A program made the position numbers and the translations under genes. From Pseudomonadota bacterium (GTDB lineage: Bacteria > Desulfobacterota > Binatia > Binatales > Binataceae), in the NCBI GenBank assembly GCA_021323945.1, contig JAJPKA010000020.1, forward strand, positions 248,001 through 312,000: a stretch of 64,000 nucleotides of DNA, given 5' to 3'. The notes below the pieces were generated by a model. It saw nothing but the letters and a program-made list of their open reading frames with translations, did not search any database and had not been told where the DNA came from. The stretch's first letter is position 1. The number at the start of each line of letters is the position of its first letter. Shown piece after piece: positions 8,260 to 9,590 of the stretch.

Positions 8260-8823
8260 ATGGGGCCAATTCCCAAGGGAGTTTTCCTTACTAAAGGAGT
8301 CGGCAAGCATCGCGAAAAGCTCAATTCTTTCGAGTTGGCATTGCGGTCAGCCGGCATTGCGGAATTCAATCTGGTCCGGGTCAAATCGATTTTTCCTCCC
8401 AACTGTCGACTCATAACGCCACAGGAAGGCCTGCGCTATCTCTCCCCTGGACAACTCGTGTTTGCGGTGATGAGCGATAATGCTACGGACGAACCGCACC
8501 GGCTGGTGGCCGCGTCTGTCGGCGTTGCGATTCCAGCCAACCCCAGCCATTACGGCTACCTGTCGGAGCATCACAGTTTTGGCGAGACCGAGCAGAAGGC
8601 GGGAGACTACGCCGAAGACATGGCCGCGATGATGCTTGCCACAATACTGGGCGTCGACTTCGACCCCAATGCCAGTTACGACGAGCGCAAAGATATCTGG
8701 CGCGTTTCGGATAAGATCGTTACAACCCGCAACGTGACGCAATCGGCCATCGGCGATCGCGACGGGCTTTGGACGTCAGTAGTGGCGGCGGCAGTCTTTG
8801 TCGACCTGCCCAATGGGCGTTAG
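8260..8823 (+). CDS. pdaD: Pyruvoyl-dependent arginine decarboxylase
   Basis: A 187-residue member of the PdaD/PvlArgDC family, which decarboxylates arginine to agmatine, a polyamine precursor, after self-cleavage creates a pyruvoyl group. Family blocks seen: FLTKGVGKHREKLNSFE, LRSAGIAEFNLVRV, SIFPPNC, GLRYLSPGQLVFAVMS, SEHHSFGETEQKAGDYAED. The serine expected to become pyruvoyl is S43. The residue before it is lysine (K42), whereas known enzymes of this family usually have Ser or Thr there. GAGGAG lies 12 bases before the ATG. It follows the mutase by 142 bases and may be cotranscribed with it. Confidence 0.92.
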   Translation: MGPIPKGVFLTKGVGKHREKLNSFELALRSAGIAEFNLVRVKSIFPPNCRLITPQEGLRYLSPGQLVFAVMSDNATDEPHRLVAASVGVAIPANPSHYGYLSEHHSFGETEQKAGDYAEDMAAMMLATILGVDFDPNASYDERKDIWRVSDKIVTTRNVTQSAIGDRDGLWTSVVAAAVFVDLPNGR

Positions 8824-8907
8824 CAAGCGTGCGGATCCGGTGCCAGTAGCCTCTTTAAAAAAGCGCGGCTGTTGAGACCGGCGGAGGCGCGCGCTACCCT
8901 TCCCATT

Positions 8908-9138
8908 ATGGCAACGGAAATTTTCTACTGTGAGGTCTGAGGATATAAGCCACGCGCGACCAGTTTGGCCGCGTCTCTGAACTCCCGCTTCGGCGAGCAG
9001 GTGCAGGTCAAGCCGGGTAAGACCGGCCAATTCGATGTGGTGGTCGATGGTCGGGTAATCTTTTCGAAGGCCCAGGCGGGTCGTTTTCCGCTCGACAACG
9101 AAGTTGAAGAGCTCTTTGCAAAAGAGCGAACTGGGTGA
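8908..9138 (+). CDS. SelW/Rdx-family selenoprotein with in-frame TGA (selenocysteine)
   Basis: An ATG at 8908 opens a 76-residue frame that is interrupted only by TGA at 8938-8940 and ends at TGA 9136-9138. Read with selenocysteine (U), the start is MATEIFYCEVUGYKPRA, the CxxU form of the CxxC redox motif of the thioredoxin-like Rdx/SelW/SelT family. After the TGA the frame goes on with family features: LAASLNSRFGEQVQV, PGKTGQFDVVVDG, RVIFSKAQAGRFP and a C-terminal EVEELF helix. C8 and U11 would form the active pair. Homology on both sides of the TGA argues strongly against a pseudogene. A SECIS-like hairpin sits at the expected distance. The partner and substrate are unknown; the family is thought to act in thiol redox. 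Standard gene calling would miss it. Confidence 0.88.
8954..8974 (+). promoter_or_regulatory. Putative bacterial SECIS hairpin for selenocysteine insertion
   Basis: Pairs G8954-U8974, C8955-G8973, G8956-C8972, C8957-G8971, G8958-C8970, an A-C mismatch, C8960-G8968, C8961-G8967 and A8962-U8966 close a small apical loop starting with G8963 and U8964. The loop G is 22 bases beyond the UGA, within the range accepted for SelB-dependent bacterial SECIS elements, which need an apical-loop G. Folding was done by eye. Confidence 0.6.
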
Positions 9139-9231
9139 ACCGGGCGATTGACAATTTGGAAGTTGCATCCATGGGCTGCTCGCCTTAACTTTAACTGTGC
9201 CTGGTGATCATGTCGTCTTGTCGAGTCTTTT

Positions 9232-9590
9232 GGGGGCGAAATGGGTTCGACGGGGATGTGAGGGTTTTGGTCGCACGCCGGGGTGCTGTTGGCCCGTTAA
9301 ACAAACAGCACTGCGAAATTTATCCGCAGACGATAACGGTTACGCTCTAGCGGCCTAAGTGCCGCTAGCGTCCCGCCGCTGTTCGCCCGTGACAGCGGAT
9401 CGGGGCGTCATCTAGCGGGCTAGGATACCGTCATTTGCCGATTGGGCGGTATCCGAAATCACAACCGGCTGGCCATGTGGCAGCGCGTCCGCGGGCGGCC
9501 ATATGGCGAGCTCCAAAGCGCGGAACAAGCGTGTAGTGGCCGATTCCTGAGCATCTTCGGACGGGGGTTCAATTCCCCCCGCCTCCACCA
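9232..9590 (+). ncRNA. ssrA: Transfer-messenger RNA (tmRNA), one-piece
   Basis: The 5' end (GGGGGCGAAATGGGTTCGAC) and the 3' end (CGGGGGTTCAATTCCCCCCG, then CCTCCACCA) are the tRNA-like halves of ssrA. The 7-bp acceptor stem GGGGGCG/CGCCTCC pairs fully with one G-U, and CCA is encoded at 9588-9590. The tag frame is GCA at 9326 to TAA at 9356-9358, giving ADDNGYALAA, clearly matching the ANDENYALAA-type proteolysis tag. The RNA is 359 nt, a normal size. It works with SmpB to rescue stalled ribosomes. It begins 93 bases after the selenoprotein gene. Confidence 0.97.

Follow-up and report, generated by a model that had tools for sequence, protein, structure and literature searches.

A SelW-like selenoprotein gene of the Rdx family predicted in a Binataceae bacterium

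The 64 000 nt stretch of Binataceae DNA analysed here (the window) contains a short frame, lying between pdaD and ssrA, that is interrupted by a single in-frame TGA (Table 1), raising the question of whether this codon is read as selenocysteine (Sec), is read as something else, or is simply an error. An earlier note had placed the frame between these two neighbours, as was found here, and had proposed that it encodes a selenoprotein of the SelW/Rdx family in which the TGA occupies the position of the second Cys of a CxxC motif and is followed by a SECIS-like hairpin. That reading is supported by the Rdx match, the sel genes, the conservation of the TGA and a covarying hairpin, though the hairpin as first argued needed further evidence.

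Table 1. Features of the rdx locus (window coordinates) and Sec genes of the same genome (contig:coordinates)
Feature	Location	Strand	Details
pdaD, pyruvoyl-dependent arginine decarboxylase	8260..8823	+	PF01862, E 3.6e-59
rdx/selW-like selenoprotein gene (predicted)	8908..9138	+	76 residues, Sec = residue 11; terminal stop TGA 9136-9138
In-frame TGA, predicted Sec codon (CxxU)	8938..8940	+	Conserved in family; Cys codon in four homologues
Predicted bacterial SECIS hairpin	8956..8972	+	Arms 8956-8961 and 8967-8972; loop 8962-8966 (AGTTT), G8963; covariation, codon constraint
ssrA (tmRNA)	9232..9590	+	Downstream neighbour; outside the selenoprotein system
selB	C8:862117-864006		360 bits, cut-off 242.25
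selA	C8:142673-144001		572.3 bits, cut-off 267.9
selD	C1:158949-159872		379.4 bits, cut-off 125; one in-frame TGA
tRNA-Sec (selC)	C8:776080-776171		74.2 bits, cut-off 47; ARAGORN tRNA-SeC, anticodon tca

With the internal TGA written as U, the frame translates as MATEIFYCEVUGYKPRATSLAASLNSRFGEQVQVKPGKTGQFDVVVDGRVIFSKAQAGRFPLDNEVEELFAKERTG, followed by TGA, and the U falls at the second position of the CxxC pair (CEVU, residues 8–11). Rdx sequence is present on both sides of it. The Rdx profile search of the genome from which the window derives gave a match that spans the TGA, with 1 TGA inside (E 5.3e-15), and hmmscan of the read-through translation matched PF10262 (Rdx) over residues 4–69 (E 4.9e-18, 65.5 bits against a cut-off of 22.6). 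The NCBIfam model TIGR02174 (CXXU_selWTH) was passed with 54.7 bits (cut-off 34.2), and the narrower NF041051, of Campylobacter type, was not reached (82.5 bits, cut-off 88). In an alignment of 36 sequences picked for spread, both columns of the CxxU pair near the N-terminus are invariant when U is read as C, and I5, Y7 and C8, which precede the TGA, are likewise invariant. Downstream of the TGA, 60 codons are free of stops in all 26 family genes compared, and the median dN/dS is 0.25 over the 276 pairs with dS <2 (of 308 with finite dS); for the pair formed by the window and its genus-mate G001, dS was not computable and hence there is no ratio.

The AlphaFold2 model obtained with the 36-sequence alignment, again with U read as C, has a pLDDT of 90.7 and a pTM of 0.77, and its top Foldseek matches are solved structures related to SelW (E 1.5e-5), mouse SelW being at rank 23. 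Measured by query length, TM-scores range from 0.66, for mouse SelW (2npb), to 0.90 in a set that includes the bacterial structures 2fa8, 2p0g, 3dex, 2obk and 2ojl, whereas sequence identity to the window protein is 24–35 %. The predicted product is a thioredoxin-like fold of the SelW kind and, by analogy with the family, its role is most likely thiol/selenol redox chemistry.

The TGA is not peculiar to this genome. In 57 genomes (this one and relatives) Rdx was found in 37, at 38 places, 34 of which have one internal TGA and four none. Within the Binataceae, 31 of 35 genomes have Rdx and every one of the 31 genes, all of which were read, has TGA at the CxxU codon. Among 395 genomes drawn from the phylum, Rdx was found in 56 (57 places), with an internal TGA in 52 places and, at one of these, a TAG as well. 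Family members account for five of the 52 (G000, G006, G007, G014 and G015); of the other 47, 29 were read and all have the TGA at CxxU together with the hairpin geometry described below. The earlier note had suggested alignment with Cys-containing homologues, and at the four stop-free Rdx places, which are from the same class (L021, L022, L119 and L120), the Sec codon is replaced by TGT or TGC, in agreement with its placing of the TGA at the second Cys. A public scan (20 loci) gave a best match of 79 % identity, to a contig of a Candidatus Binataceae MAG (L050), and also found TGA at CxxU in sequences labelled Nitrospirae, Thermodesulfovibrionia, delta proteobacterium, Betaproteobacteria, Gemmatimonadetes, Desulfobulbaceae, Acidobacteria/Acidobacteriota (three) and Polarisedimenticola, as well as in L068 (Acidobacteria). 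One Acidobacteria homologue (L069) has Gly in place of Sec or Cys (CPAG). In two genomes the TGA form and a second, stop-free Rdx copy lie within a few kb of each other (G044:C2 68991/73434 and G367:C134 8334/8898).

The genome itself, a 3.74 Mb draft in 22 contigs that is 95.5 % complete, was searched for the Sec machinery. The earlier note had named selA, selB, selC and selD as the genes to look for, and the absence of selB and selC as evidence against its proposal; all four genes were found (Table 1). The next Rfam tRNA-Sec match in this genome, at 50.5 bits, is also above the Rfam cut-off, yet was identified by ARAGORN as a tRNA-Ser. The in-frame TGA of selD (KAAGU; L011:1531-1533, contig C1) is followed downstream by a hairpin, GGGUCC-GGC-GGACCU, and lies at what we take to be the active-site position. 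The alpha subunit of formate dehydrogenase was considered as a further selenoprotein and rejected, as none of its six matches in the genome has an internal stop. The two strongest of these (C14:49592-51619 and C8:494503-496539) are, on that basis, not selenoproteins here.

Across the 57 genomes, selB was over its cut-off in 50, and a tRNA-Sec match of at least 66 bits was present in 43, the next best score being 54.9. The Rfam cut-off for tRNA-Sec is also passed by tRNA-Ser, so the 50 of 57 genomes that exceed it do not represent a count of tRNA-Sec, and ARAGORN read the best matches in G026, G032, G011, G001, G029, G033, G005, G040 and G042 as tRNA-Ser, -Leu or -Cys. Where the TGA form of Rdx is present, selB was over the cut-off in 33 of 34 genomes (G005, with a completeness of 53 %, is the exception) and tRNA-Sec reached at least 66 bits in 30 of 34; selB was found in 17 of the 23 genomes without it. 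The four TGA-Rdx genomes with no clear tRNA-Sec (G001, G005, G029 and G033, with best matches to tRNA-Ser or tRNA-Cys) are assemblies of about 380, 420, 560 and 100 contigs, respectively.

Rdx was not found in four Binataceae genomes, and two of these (G026 and G032) also had no selB over the cut-off and no recognized tRNA-Sec, their best matches being tRNA-Ser and tRNA-Leu, whereas their genus-mates G015 and G034 have rdx, selB and tRNA-Sec. All genomes are drafts and single absences are therefore weak evidence. Downstream of pdaD, rdx is present in G015 and G034 and neatly missing in G026 (L108) and G032 (L110), and the sequence further downstream is recognizable in all four. This amounts to a natural experiment, in which two members are without rdx, selB and recognized tRNA-Sec together while their genus-mates keep all three. 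The other two genomes that were found without Rdx, G003 and G011, have selB, and hence loss of rdx does not require loss of selB. G003 also has tRNA-Sec, with other sequence after pdaD; G011 gave no match to pdaD, and its highest-scoring tRNA-Sec hit is a tRNA-Ser.

The claim that a hairpin with a G in its loop stands 22 bases past the TGA held in so far as the hairpin is present, its three-base loop core starting 22 nt past the TGA, but taken alone it was weak evidence. One of the six pairs (8959/8969) is an A/C mismatch in the window genome, a mismatch that is not found in the genus-mate G001. The fold of a 61 nt stretch is no more stable than that of shuffled sequences (z 0.45), and loosely SECIS-like hairpins follow 918 of the 2038 TGAs on both strands of the window, which rules out stability of the hairpin as evidence. 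Loose hairpins also follow 97 of the 235 TGAs that lie in an open frame (8 codons before, 50 after). The exact geometry is much rarer, following 17 of the 2038 TGAs, and the rdx TGA is the sole one that has it among the 235; it is also one of 12 among them with CxxU or UxxC. A scan of positions 8800–9300 with Rfam picked up the beginning of the tmRNA; its three other matches were weak and fell short of their gathering scores, and the hairpin was not recognized.

Comparison between species turns this into what we consider strong evidence. With the geometry fixed (six pairs and a five-base loop), at least five pairs and a G as the second loop base were present in all 26 family genes, in all of five further family genes (six pairs each) and in all 29 phylum loci. 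When codons were resampled in a manner that preserved the protein, such hairpins arose on average in 6.2 of the 26 family genes, with a maximum of 16 in 1000 trials, and the 153 of 156 pairs observed compare with 125±3.6 (maximum 136 in 1000). The codon that supplies the loop G is AGT in 28 of 31 family genes and GGT in three, though only one of the 109 other Ser codons further downstream in the 26 family genes is AGT; in a wider control comprising four window genes and the family genes it was less rare, at 6 of 145.

Covariation was examined in a second alignment (62 sequences), which omits the Binataceae loci from the public scan (L050–L057), the later family loci L115–L118 and L121, the Betaproteobacterium L061, the loci L064–L068, in which the hairpin is 3 nt further on, L069 and the Cys forms. 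Over 60 distinct sequences, 92.2 % of cells are paired against 77.4 % in shuffles. Both sides have changed in 51 cells; the corresponding number is 16.1±4.3 in shuffles and 3 to 15 with a slid partner, and sliding the partner by 1–3 bases destroyed the covariation signal. Changes on both sides occur at four of the six pairs, a number reached by 14 of 500 shuffles, and no shuffle reached the observed covariation score, number of paired cells or number of double-change cells. The sequences are related, and neither these counts nor those given above are therefore of independent events. RNAalifold, applied to the 60-sequence alignment, returned the same hairpin with an additional A/U pair at the loop; it left out the outermost G/C pair, which fails to form in 19 of the 60 sequences. 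On these comparisons the hairpin is constrained at the RNA level, and the covarying alignment gives a description of an element missed by the Rfam scan.

In L064–L068 (Acidobacteria and Polarisedimenticola) an extra codon separates the U from the hairpin, which sits 3 nt further along with its form and its loop G unchanged. The Cys-containing Rdx genes of the same class (G042, G044, G040 and G053) share the domain and the position of the CxxC pair with the window gene but have TGT or TGC for TGA; of the six pairs in the hairpin they have 3, 2, 3 and 1, respectively. The Cys copy in G042 has another strong hairpin (−17.9 kcal/mol, loop CUG).

The constraint on a hairpin beside the UGA and the complete set of sel genes also bear on the possibility that the UGA is decoded as Trp or Cys, or passed by plain near-cognate read-through, rather than as Sec. 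In general, UGA is known to be misread at a low level, and read-through at this site is a prediction, but the TGA aligns with Cys and not with Trp, the gene is missing together with selB and tRNA-Sec in two relatives, and its own stop is also TGA, so that we regard decoding as another residue as very improbable. Still less credible is a true product of 57 residues that starts at the internal TTG at 8965, lacks the redox site and leaves the upstream codons as a leader peptide; a frame with this start (8965–9138) does exist, but its TTG falls within the hairpin, the short form would be without strand 1 of the predicted fold, and the conserved residues upstream of the TGA, among them the three that are invariant in the 36 sequences, match Rdx. 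Single-base errors do occur, and the window derives from a draft assembly in 22 contigs; even so, the idea that the TGA arose by missequencing or misassembly, or that it is a nonsense mutation marking the decay of a Cys gene, is in effect already refuted. The downstream frame is open and conserved, and the TGA recurs at this codon in the 29 further phylum loci and in each of the 31 Binataceae genomes with Rdx; its recurrence within the family makes a base-calling error very unlikely.

On the combined sequence evidence we judge it almost certain that this Binataceae bacterium has, at this locus, a functional selenoprotein gene of the SelW-like kind (Rdx family). If Sec insertion follows the known pathway, a ribosome arriving at the UGA at codon 11 would meet SelB bound to the hairpin, whose apical loop carries a G and which starts approximately 15 nt downstream. 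SelB would deliver Sec-tRNA(UCA), which SelA would have made using selenophosphate supplied by SelD. Translation would then continue to the terminal TGA, 66 codons on, and the product would have a thioredoxin fold, its Cys-x-x-Sec redox site coming immediately after the first strand.

Selenoproteins of this type are not new. SelW-like CxxU selenoproteins were reported from Sargasso Sea data in 2005 (PMC1088965) and from bacterial genomes in 2006 (PMC1794560); together with SelD, they are reported as the most widespread selenoproteins in ocean samples in 2008 (PMC2398784), and a 2022 review lists SelW-like proteins under PF10262 with CxxU (PMC9312934). The window gene resembles the known bacterial SelW-like (SELENOW-like) selenoproteins in its PF10262 domain, its CxxU and a hairpin straight past the UGA with a G in a small loop, and differs from them in its host, a member of the Binataceae (candidate phylum Binatota), and in its conserved place behind pdaD. 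Eukaryotic SECIS elements are located in the 3′ untranslated region (PMC1088965). Within the part of the literature covered, no paper on selenoproteins, selB or selenocysteine in Binatota or Binatia was found, the one mention being in a reference list, and a text search of a 2025 method paper found no mention of SelW, Desulfobacterota or Binat.

The place behind pdaD is shared by 22 of 26 Binataceae loci. The pair is conserved, and we read no more than co-location into it. It seems unlikely, if conceivable, that the Binataceae SelW-like selenoprotein is tied to PdaD, as a Cys-Sec protein that would tune or protect agmatine/polyamine synthesis, and that rdx is one of several clients whose loss allowed some members to drop the whole Sec trait. 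The adjacency of ssrA was found in 1 of the 26 loci, most of which extend for approximately 1.7 kb on the downstream side (369 nt in L030), and was discarded as meaningful; ssrA is an incidental neighbour.

The SelW-like family has been known in bacteria for some twenty years, and the Binataceae gene is a well-supported further example of it, and otherwise a case that annotators should expect to deal with. For the family itself, the gene indicates that UGA is decoded as selenocysteine in the Binataceae.
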